A stretch of DNA of 64,000 nucleotides from Natronomonas halophila. GTDB taxonomy: Archaea; Halobacteriota; Halobacteria; Halobacteriales; Haloarculaceae. Shown piece by piece: positions 3,774 to 51,635 of this stretch. The position numbers were made by a program, and so were the translations under genes. Location: NCBI RefSeq assembly GCF_013391085.1, contig NZ_CP058334.1, forward strand, positions 1,240,001 through 1,304,000. Direction: 5' to 3'. Each line of letters starts with the position of its first letter. Position 1 is the stretch's first letter. The notes beneath the pieces are model-generated. The model ran no database searches, was not told where the DNA came from, and worked only from the letters and a program-made list of their open reading frames with translations.

Positions 3774-4277
3774 ATGTTCGACGAGATTATGCGGAAGTTC
3801 GAGGACAGCCCGAGCCAGCAGGCTGTCATTCGGCTCCTGCTCGAACGCGGCTTCTCCGTCAACGACGACGGCCGCGTCGTCTCCGGCGGCATCGAGATTC
3901 CGAACACGGGCATCGCCCGCGAAATCGACGTCGACCGCCGGGTCGTCGACGCGACGACCGACGCCATCCTCGAAGACGACGAACTCCGTCGTATCTTCCA
4001 GAACATCTCGGCGATTCCGTCGCTAATGGACCTCGCGCCCGTGTTGGACCTGAACGTCCTGACGGTTCGGGTGGGAAATGCCGACCAGCCGGGTATCGTC
4101 GCGGAAATCACGGGGATGCTCGCCGACAACGACATCTCGATTCGCCAGACTATCAGCGAGGACCCGGAGTTCACCGACGAGCCGAAACTCTACATCATCA
4201 CCGACGAACCGCTGCCGGGCGAGTTGCTCAACGAGATTCGCGCCCTCGACTTCGTCCGCAAAATCGAACTGGAGTAG
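3774..4277 (+). CDS. ACT-domain regulator of amino-acid metabolism
   Basis: This 167-residue protein has a helical, winged-helix-like N-terminal half (residues 1-75, with SQQAVIRLLLERGFSVNDDG) and a C-terminal ACT domain from about residue 92 (LNVLTVRVGNADQPGIVAEI, then DNDISIRQTISEDP). ACT domains bind amino acids, and proteins of this archaeal type (COG2061-like) are taken to be ligand-responsive transcription regulators. The target and ligand are not visible. The stop codon is followed one base later by an inverted-repeat element that fills the gap to the convergent gene. Confidence 0.75.
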   Translation: MFDEIMRKFEDSPSQQAVIRLLLERGFSVNDDGRVVSGGIEIPNTGIAREIDVDRRVVDATTDAILEDDELRRIFQNISAIPSLMDLAPVLDLNVLTVRVGNADQPGIVAEITGMLADNDISIRQTISEDPEFTDEPKLYIITDEPLPGELLNEIRALDFVRKIELE

Positions 4278-4278
4278 A

Positions 4279-4383
4279 TACTGTCGGACGTAATTTCGTG
4301 AATATTCGAATAGCCGACGTGTCTGAGCCCCATCTCAGGGCTTGCCAACGGGACAGAAATCCGAGTAGTTACGTCCGACAGTA
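4279..4383. repeat. 105-bp element bounded by perfect 15-bp inverted repeats
   Basis: The ends are TACTGTCGGACGTAA (4279-4293) and its exact reverse complement (4369-4383). The element fills the gap between two convergent genes: one base after the stop of the ACT gene and immediately before the stop of the gene at 4384. Inside is a small hairpin (CTGAG...CTCAG near 4324-4339). There is no coding potential. A solo copy of the same end, GATACTGTCGGACGT, occurs at 49796-49810. It may be a MITE-like element or a bidirectional terminator. Confidence 0.75.
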
Positions 4384-5091
4384 CTAATTCTTCGTCGGTT
4401 CGGACTCGCCGTGGGTTTCCTCTTCGCCTTCCTCCGGCGGCGGGTGACCTTCGACGGCTTCGGCCACGTTGGTTTCCTTCGGGATGTCGACGTGCCAGCG
4501 GTCGACCGAGGTTTCGTAGTCCGCGAGTTTGTTGGAGACGCGAATCTTCAGGTCGTCGTCGTTGATGTTGACCTCGAAGACGTAGTCGTCGCCATCGCCG
4601 GCCGACTGGACGTTCGCACTGACCAGTTGGTTGTCGAAGTAGTACGGCGATACCTGTGTCATGACCTTCTTGTAAACGCCCCCCTCGACTTTCCGGAGCG
4701 CTTTCCGGGTCGCCGAGTCTGCCGCGCGAGCAACGTGATTGATGGAATCGCGCCACTCGCCGACGGCCTCGACTGGCTCTTCGAGGCTCTCGTAGGAGTC
4801 CGCCAACTTCTCGCCGGCGGTCTTGAGATCGTCCTCGGGCTCTTTGCCCGCCTTCTCGCCTTCGCCCTCCGCGACGGCCGCTTGCTCGGCGGTCTTTTCG
4901 CTGACGTCCTTGCTGAGCCGTTCTTCGGCTTTCGGTCGCCAGTCGTCCCATTCTTCGAGTGCGTCCTCGTCGACCGGCTGGTCCTCATCCGCGAGGTCCT
5001 TGAGTGCTCGCGTGATTCGTTCGCCGTGTTCGACGATGTCTCCCCAGCGTCCGCGGACCTTGAACCCGGAGACGCTCTCTTCGACCTCCAT
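4384..5091 (-). CDS. Conserved haloarchaeal protein, possibly DUF5828
   Basis: This is a 235-residue, strongly acidic soluble protein without signal or membrane segments. It begins MEVEESVSGFKVRGRWGDIVE and has a long Glu/Lys/Ala-rich, probably coiled-coil middle (residues 45-120). The C-terminal part has a beta-like segment (YVFEVNINDDDLKIRV) and an acidic tail. The longer open frame to 5916 is ignored because the extension is the shadow of upp on the other strand. It resembles what is annotated as DUF5828 in halophiles, recalled rather than searched. The function is unknown. It is divergent from upp, with 81 bp between. Confidence 0.7.
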   Translation of the reverse strand: MEVEESVSGFKVRGRWGDIVEHGERITRALKDLADEDQPVDEDALEEWDDWRPKAEERLSKDVSEKTAEQAAVAEGEGEKAGKEPEDDLKTAGEKLADSYESLEEPVEAVGEWRDSINHVARAADSATRKALRKVEGGVYKKVMTQVSPYYFDNQLVSANVQSAGDGDDYVFEVNINDDDLKIRVSNKLADYETSVDRWHVDIPKETNVAEAVEGHPPPEEGEEETHGESEPTKN

Positions 5092-11365: not shown

Positions 11366-13546
11366 ATGGATTCCCACGGGAGGGGGGCTCGGGATTCTGC
11401 CTCCGTCGACGGTTCCGCAAACGCGGGACGAGGGGCCGATTCGACGGCGCGCGTCCTACATCTGGACGACGAACCGACCTTTCTGGAGACGTCGAAACGC
11501 CTTCTGGAACACCACGAGGATTTCGTCGTCAAACTCGAGACGGACCCGGAGGCCGCACTCGACCGACTGGATTCGGTCGACTGTATCGTCTCCGATTACG
11601 ACATGCCGACGATGAACGGCATCGAGTTTCTGGAGGCCGTCCGGGCGCAGGACCCCGACCTACCGTTCATCCTCTTTACCGGGAAGGGAAGCGAGGAAAT
11701 CGCCAGCGAGGCCATCCGGGCCGGCGTCACCGACTACCTCCAGAAGGGGGCCGATTCAGACCGCTTTGCCATCCTCGCGAACCGGATTACGAACGCCGTC
11801 GAGCGGCATCGCGCGGAAAAGCGGGCAACCGCCGCAGACCATCGGGCCCGCCGCGTCTACGAACGCATCGACGACGCCTTCATCGCCGTCGACGACGAGT
11901 GGCGCTTTACCTACGTCAACCAGCGGGCCGGCGAACTGCTCGATTCGGACCCCGAAGCACTGGTTGGAACGAAGGTTCGGGACGCCTTCCCCGAGGTAGT
12001 CGGCAGCCGGTTCGACGAAGAATACAGACGCGCCGTCGAACAGCAGGAGACGGTCACTTTCGAGGAGTATTACGAGCCACTCGACGCGTGGTTCGAGGTG
12101 CGGGCCTATCCCGACGACTCCGGCCTGTCGGTGTACTTCCGTGACGTGACCGAAAAGAAGGAACGGGAACGTCGCTACGACGCCGTCTTCAACAACACCT
12201 ACCAGTTCACGGGGCTGCTCGAACCCGACGGCACGCTTATCGAGGCCAACGAGGCGGCCCTCTCCTTCGTCGATGCCGACCGCGAGGAGGTGGTCGACCG
12301 GTCGCTGTGGGAGACGCCGTGGTTCCAGTTGAACGACGAGACGCGCCGCATCGCCCGCCAGTCGGTCCAGCAGGCGCGAGAGGGGTCCTTCTATCGCGAC
12401 GAACTCCCCGTCGAGGGCGCCGACGGCCAGACCATCATCGTCGATTACTCCGTGCGGCCGGTCACCGACGAATCCGGCGAGGTGACGCTTCTGGTCCCCG
12501 AGGGTCGGGACATCACCGACCGTAAAGAGCGGGAGGCGGAACTCCGCGAGGAGCGAGCGATAACCGAGAGCATCTTCTCGGCGCTTCCTGATGTCCTCTA
12601 CGTGTTCGACGAGAGCGGGCGGTTCATCCGCTGGAACGACCAACTCTCGTCGGTGACCGGCTACAGCGACGAGGAGATAACCGAGATGCGCCCGTGGGAT
12701 TTCGTCCCGGAATCCGAGCGCGAGAAGATTCAAGAGGCCATCGACGGCGTCTTCGACGCCGACCGGACGATGACCGTCGAATCGGCGTTCGTAACGAAGG
12801 ACGGCGAGCGAATCCCCTACGAGTTCACGGGCGCCCAACTGACTGACGACGACGGTCAGACGCTCGGCCTCGTCGGCATCGGCCGCGACATCAGCGAGCG
12901 GAAGGAGCGAGAGCAGCAACTCGAACGGAAAAACGAGCAGTTAGAGGAGTTCGCCTCGCTCATCTCCCACGACCTCAAGACGCCGCTGTCGGTCGCCAGC
13001 GGGAACCTTCGACTCGCTCGCGAGACGGGCGAAGACCGGTATCTCGACGAGATAGAAACCGCCCTCGACCGGATGGGGACGCTCGTCGACGAGGTCCTGG
13101 AGTTGGCCAAGCAGGGCGAAGTCGTCGACGACGTGGCGCCAGTCAGGCTCCGGCCGATGCTCTCGGATATCGAGACGGCCACCGGAGCAGACGTCGAGAC
13201 GGCCTATCCAGACGGCGCCGCCGTCATGGCCGAGAAATCCCGACTCTATTCGCTTTTGAGTAACCTGGTCGCGAATTCCGACGACCACGGCGGCGAGGAC
13301 GTCACCGTCGAAGTCGGCCTTGATGGCGAAACGCTCTACGTCGCCGACGACGGCCGTGGCATACCCGAAGAGGAACGCGACACCGTCTTCGACCCCGGAT
13401 ATTCGGGCGACGACGGCAGCGGTTTCGGTCTCGCCATCGCCGAAGCCATCGCCGACGCACACGGCTGGGAGATCGACGTCACCGACAGCGAGGCGGGCGG
13501 CGCGCGCTTCGAAATCAGCGGCGTCAATGCGCAGTCCGTCGAATGA
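11366..13546 (+). CDS. Sensor histidine kinase with N-terminal receiver and three PAS domains
   Basis: This 726-residue soluble signalling protein has four kinds of domain. A receiver domain covers about residues 29-150, with phospho-acceptor Asp77 in DCIVSDYDMP and KGA near 127. Three PAS modules span about 160-515, each ending in a PAC-like DVTEKKER, DITDRKER or DISERKER. HisKA has His535 in ASLISHDLKTP. The HATPase domain shows LLSNLVANSDDHGG, VADDGRGIP and GSGFGLAIA. There is no membrane segment, so it senses an internal signal. No cognate output regulator is adjacent. Its 3' end overlaps the convergent ATP-grasp gene by 23 bp. Confidence 0.9.
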   Translation: MDSHGRGARDSASVDGSANAGRGADSTARVLHLDDEPTFLETSKRLLEHHEDFVVKLETDPEAALDRLDSVDCIVSDYDMPTMNGIEFLEAVRAQDPDLPFILFTGKGSEEIASEAIRAGVTDYLQKGADSDRFAILANRITNAVERHRAEKRATAADHRARRVYERIDDAFIAVDDEWRFTYVNQRAGELLDSDPEALVGTKVRDAFPEVVGSRFDEEYRRAVEQQETVTFEEYYEPLDAWFEVRAYPDDSGLSVYFRDVTEKKERERRYDAVFNNTYQFTGLLEPDGTLIEANEAALSFVDADREEVVDRSLWETPWFQLNDETRRIARQSVQQAREGSFYRDELPVEGADGQTIIVDYSVRPVTDESGEVTLLVPEGRDITDRKEREAELREERAITESIFSALPDVLYVFDESGRFIRWNDQLSSVTGYSDEEITEMRPWDFVPESEREKIQEAIDGVFDADRTMTVESAFVTKDGERIPYEFTGAQLTDDDGQTLGLVGIGRDISERKEREQQLERKNEQLEEFASLISHDLKTPLSVASGNLRLARETGEDRYLDEIETALDRMGTLVDEVLELAKQGEVVDDVAPVRLRPMLSDIETATGADVETAYPDGAAVMAEKSRLYSLLSNLVANSDDHGGEDVTVEVGLDGETLYVADDGRGIPEEERDTVFDPGYSGDDGSGFGLAIAEAIADAHGWEIDVTDSEAGGARFEISGVNAQSVE

Positions 13547-47584: not shown

Positions 47585-48337
47585 ATGGATGTTCGCGTGA
47601 CGGGACGTGGGCCGGCCGAGCCGTTTCTGAGCGCGCGTGACGTCTTCGAGACGGAGTACGAACTCGCGTTGCCGGTCGACGTCGAGATACGGGAAAACCC
47701 CGACGAACGGACCGTGGCAGGCCACTACGACGACCACCACGAGTTGCTGGTCTCCCGGCGCGCAGCGACGTCGGCGATGGCCCGGGAACTCGCCCTCCAC
47801 GAGTTCGCCCACATGGCGCGCTACGAGGAGGAACACCCCTCCCACGTCCAATCGACCGAGGAGGCCCTCTATCTTGCCTTGGCCGGCAAAAGCGTCGAAC
47901 GGCGAAAGCTATCCCACTGTTATCAGATCGCGAATCACATGAAAGACATCTACGCTGACGACATCACGCTCGATATCGGGCCGACGGAGAAACTGGTCGC
48001 GTTCATGGAGTCGTCGCTGGCCAGCGCCGTCGCCGATTCGCCGCCCGCCGCACCCGGTGACTGGCAGCGGCGAACCAGTGCCGCCGACCCGGAGATTACG
48101 GCGGTCAACGCCGCCTTCGCACTCGCGCTCTTGGAGCGACACGACGCCATCGCTGCGGACCACCGGCTTTACGACCTCGCGGACGCCGCCGCGGCCGACG
48201 CGCCCGGCGTCTCCCTGTCGGCGTTCAAAACCCACTTCCTGTCGCTACAGCGGAACCCCGACGAATCGGAGTATCGGCAGGCCCTCGTGGACGTGACCCG
48301 CGAGTACGCCATCGACAGCGGGCAGGCCGCTGACTGA
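47585..48337 (+). CDS. Zincin-like protein with HExxH motif (possibly DUF5781)
   Basis: This 250-residue protein has His72-Glu73-x-x-His76 in ELALHEFAHMARYEEEHPSH, the core of zinc metalloproteases. A downstream Glu/His-rich helix (STEEALYLALAGKSVERRKL) could give the third ligand. There is no signal, so it is cytoplasmic. I recall this family as DUF5781 in halophiles. It lies between fusA and the str-type genes. Its stop codon touches the inverted-repeat element at 48337. Confidence 0.75.
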   Translation: MDVRVTGRGPAEPFLSARDVFETEYELALPVDVEIRENPDERTVAGHYDDHHELLVSRRAATSAMARELALHEFAHMARYEEEHPSHVQSTEEALYLALAGKSVERRKLSHCYQIANHMKDIYADDITLDIGPTEKLVAFMESSLASAVADSPPAAPGDWQRRTSAADPEITAVNAAFALALLERHDAIAADHRLYDLADAAAADAPGVSLSAFKTHFLSLQRNPDESEYRQALVDVTREYAIDSGQAAD

Positions 48338-48417
48338 TACGGTTTATTGTAACGAGTTGCCGGTCATCGCCAACATGGGGCTGGCGATGACCGGTAAAAG
48401 GCTACAATAATCCGTAT
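48337..48417. repeat. 81-bp nested inverted-repeat element between convergent genes
   Basis: The outer arms are ATACGGTTTATTGTA (48337-48351) and TACAATAATCCGTAT (48403-48417), matching 14 of 15. The inner perfect 13-bp stem is CCGGTCATCGCCA (48360-48372) / TGGCGATGACCGG (48382-48394) with a 9-nt loop. It fills the gap between a plus-strand stop (48335-48337) and a minus-strand stop (48423-48425). It looks like a MITE-like element or a two-way terminator. Confidence 0.75.
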
Positions 48418-48422
48418 GAGCC

Positions 48423-49760
48423 TCAGTTCTGGACGATACGCACGAGGCGGTCGTCACCCTCCTTCGGGAACGCCTCGGTCGCGCGGCCGTCCCGGTTAGA
48501 GGTAATCGCATAGAGGTTGCCGTCCGGCCCCTGTTCGACGTGACGGATACGACCGAGTTCGTCCTCGAAGATGTGGTGAGCGACCGCGTCGTATTCGGGA
48601 TGCTGCCAGTCGGCCTCGAATCGCTGACCACCGATGTCGGGGGCCTGACCCTCGAAGGCCGTGACGATGTTGACCCGCTGTGAGACGAGTCCACCCGTGA
48701 CGAAGCGGTTCTGCAGCGCAGGGACCGAATCGCCGGTGTAGAAGACGCCGCCACAGGGCGCCCACGATTCGCCGGCACCGGTGTTGACAAGCGGGTTCAC
48801 GACATCGTCGTGGGCCGAATAGGATTCGTACTCGCCGTCGTTCGGCCCGCCGCGAACGCCGCGCCAGCCGTAGTTGCCGCCTGACTCGATGAGGTTGACC
48901 TCGTCGCGGCCGGCGGGGCCGTGTTCGGGCGCGATGGGCATCCCGTCGGGAAGGTAGGAGATACCCTGTGGGTTCCGATGACCGTAGCTGTATACGCGGG
49001 GGTCCTCGAAGCCGGGGTTACCGTCGGGGGCCGTCCCGTCAGGCTTGATTCGGAGGATTTTGCCGGCGAGGTTCCCCGTGTTCTGGGGCGCCGACTCGAT
49101 GTTCGCGTCGCCGGTCGTCACCCACAGGTAGTTTCGGGGGCCGAAGGCGAGGCGAGCGCCGTTGTGGATGATGCGATGGCCCGGGATATCGTCGATGACG
49201 ACTGACTCCTCGTTGCCGTTATCGAGGTCGTAGAGGACCAGCCGATTGCGGTAGTCTTCCTCGCCCGCCTGATACGTGTAGAAGGCATACAGCACGGGCA
49301 CGTCGGGGTAGTTCGGGTGGAGCGCGATGCCGAGCAGGCCGCCTTCGCTGCCGCCGGCCCACCAGCCGCCTTCCTCACCGGTTTCGATGGCGTCGGCGTG
49401 GTCGATGACGGCGTCGGGGTCGGCGACCGACTCCAGTTCGCCGGAACTGTAGTGGCTGATGCGGCCGACGCGCTCGGAGATGAACACCTCGCCGTCGGGG
49501 GCGAACTCGAGGTCCCAGGGGACTTCGAGGCCTTCGATAATCGTCTCCGTGCCGAAGGAGGCATCCAGCGGCGAGGATTGGGGCGCCGACCACTCGGGGT
49601 CGTGGCGGTCCCAGTCGTCGATGTCGTGGTCGACCGAGAGGTCGTATTCGGAGTCGACCGGTTCGGTGTCGTCGAAGGGACTGAAACAGCCAGCGAGGGC
49701 AGCGATGCCGGCCGCCCCGGTGGAGGCGAGGAACCGTCGTCGGGAGGCAAGCGGGCGCAT
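48423..49760 (-). CDS. PQQ-dependent sugar dehydrogenase-like Tat lipoprotein
   Basis: This 445-residue secreted protein has a Tat signal SRRRFLASTGAAG with lipobox LAGC (Cys24) and a six-bladed beta-propeller of the soluble glucose dehydrogenase (GSDH) family. Readable motifs are GLEVPWDLEFAPDGEVFISE, LLGIALHPNYP, HNGARLAFGPRNYLWVTTGD, YGHRNPQGISYLPDG, EHGPAGRDEVNLIESGGNYG and DGNLYAITSNRDGR. It probably oxidises sugars outside the cell with PQQ. No PQQ synthesis gene is nearby. Confidence 0.88.
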   Translation of the reverse strand: MRPLASRRRFLASTGAAGIAALAGCFSPFDDTEPVDSEYDLSVDHDIDDWDRHDPEWSAPQSSPLDASFGTETIIEGLEVPWDLEFAPDGEVFISERVGRISHYSSGELESVADPDAVIDHADAIETGEEGGWWAGGSEGGLLGIALHPNYPDVPVLYAFYTYQAGEEDYRNRLVLYDLDNGNEESVVIDDIPGHRIIHNGARLAFGPRNYLWVTTGDANIESAPQNTGNLAGKILRIKPDGTAPDGNPGFEDPRVYSYGHRNPQGISYLPDGMPIAPEHGPAGRDEVNLIESGGNYGWRGVRGGPNDGEYESYSAHDDVVNPLVNTGAGESWAPCGGVFYTGDSVPALQNRFVTGGLVSQRVNIVTAFEGQAPDIGGQRFEADWQHPEYDAVAHHIFEDELGRIRHVEQGPDGNLYAITSNRDGRATEAFPKEGDDRLVRIVQN

Positions 49761-49795: not shown

Positions 49796-49810
49796 GATAC
49801 TGTCGGACGT
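49796..49810. repeat. Solo copy of the 15-bp TIR sequence
   Basis: GATACTGTCGGACGT matches 4277-4291 exactly, in the gap between rps7 and the sugar dehydrogenase. No inverted partner was found nearby. Confidence 0.7.
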
Positions 49811-51386: not shown

Positions 51387-51635
51387 CGAAAACCGATTGA
51401 GCAGACAACGGAGGTAGCATCCGCCGAGCGGGGCCTTCGGAGAAGGCCCCCGAGGCGGTTCCCCGGACAAGGGCGCCGAAGGCGCCCGCAGTCCGGTAGC
51501 GCCCGACGACTACCGCGCCCACGAGCGAAGCGAGTGGGCGCGACTGGAGGAGGGCGCGCATATTTTCCCCATGTTTTTGCCGAGAACCGGGGTCGCGGCA
51601 ACGCCGCGACCCGCGTTCTCGTGCAAAAAGTGGGG
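51387..51635. other. Hairpin cluster behind the rpo-nusA operon
   Basis: There is no gene in these 249 bp. It holds three GC-rich hairpins: a CCGCC...GGCGG hairpin with GGGGCCTT/AAGGCCCC, near 51418-51456; a CCGGAC/GTCCGG hairpin with GGGCGCC/GGCGCCC, near 51462-51495; and GCGCCCA/TGGGCGC around CGAGCGAAGCGAG, 51515-51541. The TTTTTGC hairpin listed next follows. Together they look like a strong end for the rpo operon. Confidence 0.6.
51574..51629 (-). terminator. TTTTTGC-capped hairpin downstream of nusA
   Basis: TTTTTGC (51574-51580) and GCAAAAA (51623-51629) enclose a stem CGAGAAC...GTTCTCG plus GGTCGCGGC/GCCGCGACC with an AAC loop. A bulged T before GCAAAAA is in the same place as in the fusA copy. 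It ends 6 bp from the nusA stop. Confidence 0.6.

Follow-up and report, generated by a model that had tools for sequence, protein, structure and literature searches.

A 105-bp insertion between convergent genes of Natronomonas halophila, probably an old copy of a non-autonomous haloarchaeal mini-element

The Small Mobile Repeats (SMRs) of Haloquadratum walsbyi come in two kinds, SMR-A of about 110 bp and SMR-B (HqIRS41) of about 80 bp, with prominent inverted ends and up to 54 copies, and are too short to encode a transposase; the available part of the original report mentions no transposon with similar ends, calls the mobilization of these repeats enigmatic, and presents them without target duplication, with SMR-A aimed at the palindromes of PATEs and IS605 elements (PMC3119063). 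As far as that part of the report extends, the movement of haloarchaeal small mobile repeats was left open in 2011. Other non-autonomous elements of haloarchaea include ISH2, which is moved in trans by ISH8, has ISH8-type ends and generates a 10-bp duplication, and MITEHsal2, which is 411-413 bp long and has a duplication of 6-8 bp (the accessible part of PMC10264941).

We analyzed a stretch of 64,000 nucleotides (hereafter, the window; G000, C1:1240001-1304000) from the single-contig 3.21-Mb genome of Natronomonas halophila. Between the stops of two convergent genes, for an ACT-domain protein and a DUF5828 protein, the window contains a 105-bp element that fills the intervening space (Table 1; for the DUF5828 gene, 5055 is the limit of the scanned span 4387-5055). 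Comparison with relatives and with orthologous loci indicates that this element is an insertion, apparently an old copy of a mobile mini-element, and very probably one that is non-autonomous and transposon-like.

Table 1. Features of the window discussed in the text (window coordinates)
Feature	Position	Strand	Basis or remark
105-bp probable mobile element copy, long size class, TACTGTCGGACGTAA ends	4279..4383		arms, relatives and empty orthologous gaps
Left terminal inverted repeat, TACTGTCGGACGTAA	4279..4293	+	sequence
Right terminal inverted repeat, TTACGTCCGACAGTA, perfect inverse of the left arm	4369..4383	-	sequence
ACT-domain protein gene, stop TAG at 4275-4277	3774..4277	+	PF01842
DUF5828 protein gene, stop (CTA) at 4384-4386	4384..5055	-	PF19146
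Second element, 79 bp, TACGGTTTATTGTAA-type ends, near-complete hairpin (z -8)	48338..48416		inverted-end scan and folding
Left TGA target duplication, the stop codon of the DUF5781 gene (47585-48337)	48335..48337	+	sequence
Right TGA target duplication	48417..48419	+	sequence
Stop of the convergent GSDH (glucose/sorbosone dehydrogenase) gene	48423-48425	convergent	6 bp past the 79-bp element
Solo 13-base arm match after CTGA, possible relic	49796..49810	+	exact GATACTGTCGGACGT match

The perfect 15-bp terminal inverted repeats reported in the initial annotation, and their placement in the convergent gap, were confirmed; the right arm directly adjoins the DUF5828 stop, and the left arm is separated from the TAG of the ACT gene by a single A (position 4278). 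The element is short and non-coding and has inverted ends, as is typical of a MITE. At the left end, the identity with relatives extends inward beyond the arm, amounting to 28 of 28 bases, counted from two bases outside the arm, with some copies from Natronomonas sp. LN261; the right end differs from the left one at positions 16 and 18 inward. The flanks are TAGA and CTAA, with no TNA duplication; when the junction found in relatives is taken as the template, the duplication could have been lost when 1 bp was inserted at the left junction and 4 bp were deleted at the right one. Having lost its duplication, the copy therefore appears to be old. The window has two perfect 15-bp inverted pairs that span 50-250 bp, this one and another at 12457-12661, against 0.05 on average in 60 dinucleotide-shuffled sequences; thus, the arms are unlikely to have arisen by chance yet are not unique, so that the evidence from the family is decisive.

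A query of 112 bases (positions 4275-4386) was searched against 60 relatives including the own genome and found matches in seven of these, the own genome counted. In LN261 (G019), which yielded 15 matches, the copies are 107 bp long, share about 27 bases on the left with the window copy and differ in their interiors; their flanks are TGA/TGA, TAA/TAA, TCA/TCA or TTA/TTA. Nested insertions were detected at two loci of this genome: at L056, a copy is nested in an older copy, with a single TTA as the empty target in comparison with the intact L106 and L110, and at L060, a second element is nested within a copy, with TGA duplicated and an empty target TGA. The matched triplet flanks and the empty targets of the nested copies therefore identify 3-bp TNA target duplications; in an earlier scan, TNA flanks were identical in 77 of 96 elements. 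Among MITE hallmarks, a fixed-length target duplication is thus present in the family, being eroded in the 105-bp copy and intact in the 79-bp element described below.

Examination of the surroundings of the ACT gene at 30 loci revealed the convergent DUF5828 gene at 12 besides the own one, and the arms are absent from the orthologous gap in all 12 of these other genomes. The stop-to-stop gaps measure 1, 9, 6, 9, 13, 114, 1, 191, 11, 31, 56 and 22 bp. At L021 and L027, where a single base pair separates the stops, the sequence is stop-G-CTA, against TAG-A-element-CTA in the window. Hence both dispersed copies and empty sites, again as in MITEs, are on record. The orthologous convergent gap of LN261 (L033, C12, downstream of the ACT gene) contains a short tandem repeat with units of about 27 bases and no element. 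The initial annotation had proposed looking for paired arms across haloarchaeal genomes, for target-site duplications and for empty sites in close strains; paired copies and target duplications turned up, as did empty sites in the other genomes with the convergent pair, with the proviso that the 105-bp copy itself carries no duplication.

The class to which the element belongs is recognized by inverted ends of about 15 bp that start with TAC or TAG, by CTNAG-like targets and by duplication of the central TNA. A pattern of two ends whose outer distance was restricted to 78-108 bp matched 101 stretches in named genomes; all 101 have haloarchaeal titles, and the hosts include LN261, Halostella pelagica, Halomarina halobia, Salinirussus and Halobacteriales MAGs. 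With at most two mismatches, a 22-base end motif was found in 102 of the 392 Halobacteriales genomes, with some of the single matches attributable to chance, and its reversed control gave scattered single matches only. A second end type, TASKGDTTRYTGTRA, matched in 15 of 60 relatives, and one 6-Mb haloarchaeal genome (G100, L311-L314) contains eight dispersed end motifs, TACTGTCGGTCATAATTACGTG, with one 106-bp element confirmed by its TCA duplication. Dozens of near-identical 78-bp copies are present in Natribaculum breve (G322), which therefore points to recent activity.

When all 64 possible start trimers were tried on 338 non-viral loci totaling 1.58 Mb, 225 TNA-flanked candidates with inverted ends were obtained, of which 198 start with TAC, 21 with TAG and 6 with other trimers; most of the scanned loci had been fetched via TAC-type patterns, and the TAG type emerged unasked. 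Once composites were dropped, 208 of the 219 TAC/TAG starters were left. All nine small candidates in 400 kb of plasmid DNA around known copies also start with TAC (eight of 78 bp and one of 108 bp).

The elements come in two sizes. Clustering at 70% identity produced 39 clusters, 35 of which contain elements of 50-135 bp, and 27 of these 35 fall in the ranges of 77-82 or 104-109 bp. Patterns based on the ends only retrieved 58 elements, including 45 of 77-81 bp, 8 of 104-109 bp and three of 98-99 bp; for the second end type, the corresponding figures are 11 elements of the short and two of the long size among 13. Because the two sizes return with end-only patterns, they are not owed to the 78-108 bp limits of the pattern used for the named genomes. 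Elements with TAGTGATT-type ends are 79-80 and 108-109 bp long, with one of 90 bp. Families with unrelated ends share the two preferred lengths, which suggests a geometric limit on the pairing of the ends of such short DNA. In the short class, almost the whole element forms a hairpin (interior z mostly -3 to -8), whereas in most clusters of the long class the interior structure does not exceed chance (z near 0). Thus, the hairpin does not explain the length of the long elements, and we retained an internal hairpin as a feature of the short class while rejecting it for the long one.

The two ends of an element diverge at specific positions. Among 69 elements dereplicated at 85%, the ends agree in 53-69 elements at positions 1-13, in 3 at position 16 and in 2 at position 18; among 29 cluster representatives, agreement is found in 2 each at positions 16 and 18 and in 21-28 at positions 13, 14, 15 and 17. 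Against a baseline of 25%, the disagreement at positions 16 and 18 has P of 0.013 each for the 29 clusters, a clear pattern with modest statistics. Position 16 is usually C at one end, and G (short class) or T (much of the long class) at the other.

The target logo obtained from 200 elements is CTNAG, and the duplicated triplets are TCA (103), TGA (77), TAA (12) and TTA (8). The gene context was assessed with a crude GC3-based gene caller and YTNAR sites as controls, leaving out sites too near a locus end or gap (12 elements and 210 controls); given that the element copies are related, these counts are descriptive. A coding frame enters the site at 13 of 188 elements compared to 586 of 1290 controls, 34 of 188 elements lie within convergent gaps compared to 28 of 1290 controls, and exact abutment is seen for 58 of the 150 gene ends that point at elements compared to 41 of 302 at controls. 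In GC-rich genomes, CTNAG would coincide with TGA and TAA stop codons, which the target duplication would leave in place; insertions where convergent genes meet would be harmless and so could build up there. That stop codons make good targets and are kept upon insertion would account for both elements of the window filling convergent gaps. At both orthologous sites, convergent haloarchaeal genes often leave almost no gap.

No inverted repeat in the window is longer than the second of these elements, which the initial annotation does not mention. This element (flanks CTGA/TGAG) is also the single match when the window is scanned without bias for inverted ends with TNA flanks. It occupies the gap between the convergent DUF5781 and GSDH genes, with an intact TGA duplication. 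Among 25 other loci for this site, the dehydrogenase was matched in nine; two of these were set aside (L560, with 872 bp of other sequence in between, and L567, with a broken match), and the element is absent from all seven usable orthologous sites, where the gap is 21 bp in one case, 19 bp in another and -4 bp in the remaining five. A third member in the own genome, also of 79 bp and flanked by TCA, is located at about C1:715783 (L516). Plasmid relatives of the 79-bp element in Halomicrobium mukohataei and Haloarcula (H1-H4) overlap annotated genes, for glycoside hydrolase family 2 and for a CPBP/CAAX peptidase, and some copies may accordingly sit inside genes or at gene ends. Elsewhere in the window, a GC-rich inverted repeat at 51567-51635 has 33-nt arms that are 79% complementary, with a 3-nt loop; it has no TAC/TAG ends, and its arms contain TTTTTG and CAAAAA.

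The initial annotation also reported a recurrence of the arm 15-mer as a solo arm at 49796-49810. The exact 15-mer, GATACTGTCGGACGT, is indeed present there and at 4277-4291, but it is made up of GA and arm bases 1-13, which leaves only 13 of the 15 arm bases matched; no second end was found near the solo arm. Across the whole own genome, the arm 13-mer with one mismatch allowed has 9 matches compared to 5 for the reversed control. Single arms at six other loci (L109, L113, L118, L121, L123 and L125), in which the match ceases at about TACTGTCGGACG and no second end is present, were rejected as chance matches, and three solo arms of LN261 (L053, L108 and L110) run into assembly gaps.

With respect to the mechanism, a transposase acting in trans would pair both ends and, as the duplications imply, cut the target with a 3-bp stagger. 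A transposase-bearing element with these ends is absent at the PF01609 loci of 8 genomes, no long element with such ends was found in 350 kb of N. breve and 50 kb of Haloarcula plasmid DNA, and among the sampled loci, end pairs 250-7000 bp apart with equal TNA included no autonomous partner. The long end pairs that we inspected were rejected as autonomous elements, being neighboring mini-elements that enclose host genes; the enclosed ORFs, named by eye, are reductase-like and others (L242), aminotransferase-like (L246) and cupin-like (L365). In viral contigs, no TNA-flanked pair was seen by eye among 80 of the 83 stretches matching the 15-mer, the 24-mer form of the end had no matches, and TAG-type ends matched at least 120 stretches. 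The MITE-like reading offered by the initial annotation is supported by dispersed copies, TNA duplications, nested insertions and empty sites, but the transposase with matching ends that it expected elsewhere was not found in the DNA searched. The same applies to its caveat that the mobile-element reading would be weakened if there were neither other paired copies nor matching transposase ends: the former do exist, whereas the latter did not come to light.

The 3-bp TNA duplication is typical of IS1031-type elements of the IS5 superfamily and, together with the symmetric CTNAG target, would fit a MITE of a conventional IS, most likely IS1031-like, whose full-length partner was lost or is unsampled. 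We regard this origin as possible but on balance doubtful: the PF01609 loci carry no such ends, PF13586 did not score above the cut-off in any of 10 element-rich genomes, and fixed sizes and an end asymmetry of the 16/18 type are not known features of MITEs. Tentatively, and with no greater conviction, we envisage that the TAC/TAG-TNA elements and probably the SMRs of Haloquadratum form one order-wide, size-quantized superfamily served by an orphan mobilizer that does not reside in a same-ended element and may be a transposase that the host encodes or has domesticated; the lengths of about 79 and 108 bp would then stem from a constraint of helical phase or synapsis on pairing ends so close together, and the enzyme would distinguish left from right by positions 16 and 18. 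Movement of a REP/REPIN-like palindrome by a single-strand (HUH, Y1) transposase is very unlikely, even though short-class elements fold into a single long hairpin whose mismatches at positions 16 and 18 are conserved, because direct target duplications such as those of TNA are not expected from Y1 transposition and most of the long class does not form a hairpin over its full length.

The initial annotation had offered, as the alternative to a mobile element, a dedicated two-way transcription terminator of the convergent pair. The location between two stop codons would suit such a terminator, and the whole element folds well on either strand (z -5.1 and -4.0). However, this folding is mainly owing to the arms, the interior being unstructured (z -0.1), there is no terminator-like site in 4200-4460, where the criterion was a stem plus a T-run, and no Rfam match was obtained; on the latter grounds and that of the interior z, a structured RNA was rejected for this copy as well. 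Furthermore, the element is missing from the 12 other orthologous gaps, and its relatives are scattered across many unrelated sites. A dedicated terminator is therefore very unlikely, although the element may affect 3' ends as a by-product. No sigma-type promoter-like sites were found at the element.

For the non-autonomous mini-element that we favor, the defined ends, the 3-bp duplication, the target motif and the two sizes make the question of movement testable, and the fresh near-identical copies in N. breve and LN261 help in this regard. Where a palindrome separates two convergent genes in haloarchaea and might be taken for a terminator or a small RNA, this class may be the explanation, and harmless insertion at stop codons would offer a simple account of the persistence of such DNA in compact genomes. 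In the literature searched, including the available parts of PMC3119063, PMC10969869 and PMC10264941, with most subscription papers and ISfinder outside its range, we found neither the TNA duplication nor the rule of two sizes nor the asymmetry of the ends described.

REP/REPIN palindromes, which are associated with RAYT transposases, are likewise small, palindromic, intergenic and non-autonomous; the elements described here differ in having the TNA duplication and transposon-type ends. The IS1031 group and its MITEs share the TNA duplication, but no matching transposase was found in the tested genomes. The haloarchaeal MITEs ISH2 and MITEHsal2, as presented in the available part of their description, are similarly non-autonomous, whereas the elements analyzed here are 78-108 bp long and have a 3-bp duplication, with no partner with matching ends found. 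No such element was found on the Haloquadratum plasmid PL47. Compared by description rather than by sequence, and with the published account available in part, the SMRs differ in that the TNA duplication and the CTNAG or stop-codon targets are features of the present elements; by the same description, with two sizes (77-82 and 104-109 bp here), prominent inverted ends and a partner that was not found in the DNA searched, the SMRs are the closest described elements to the TAC/TAG-TNA class.
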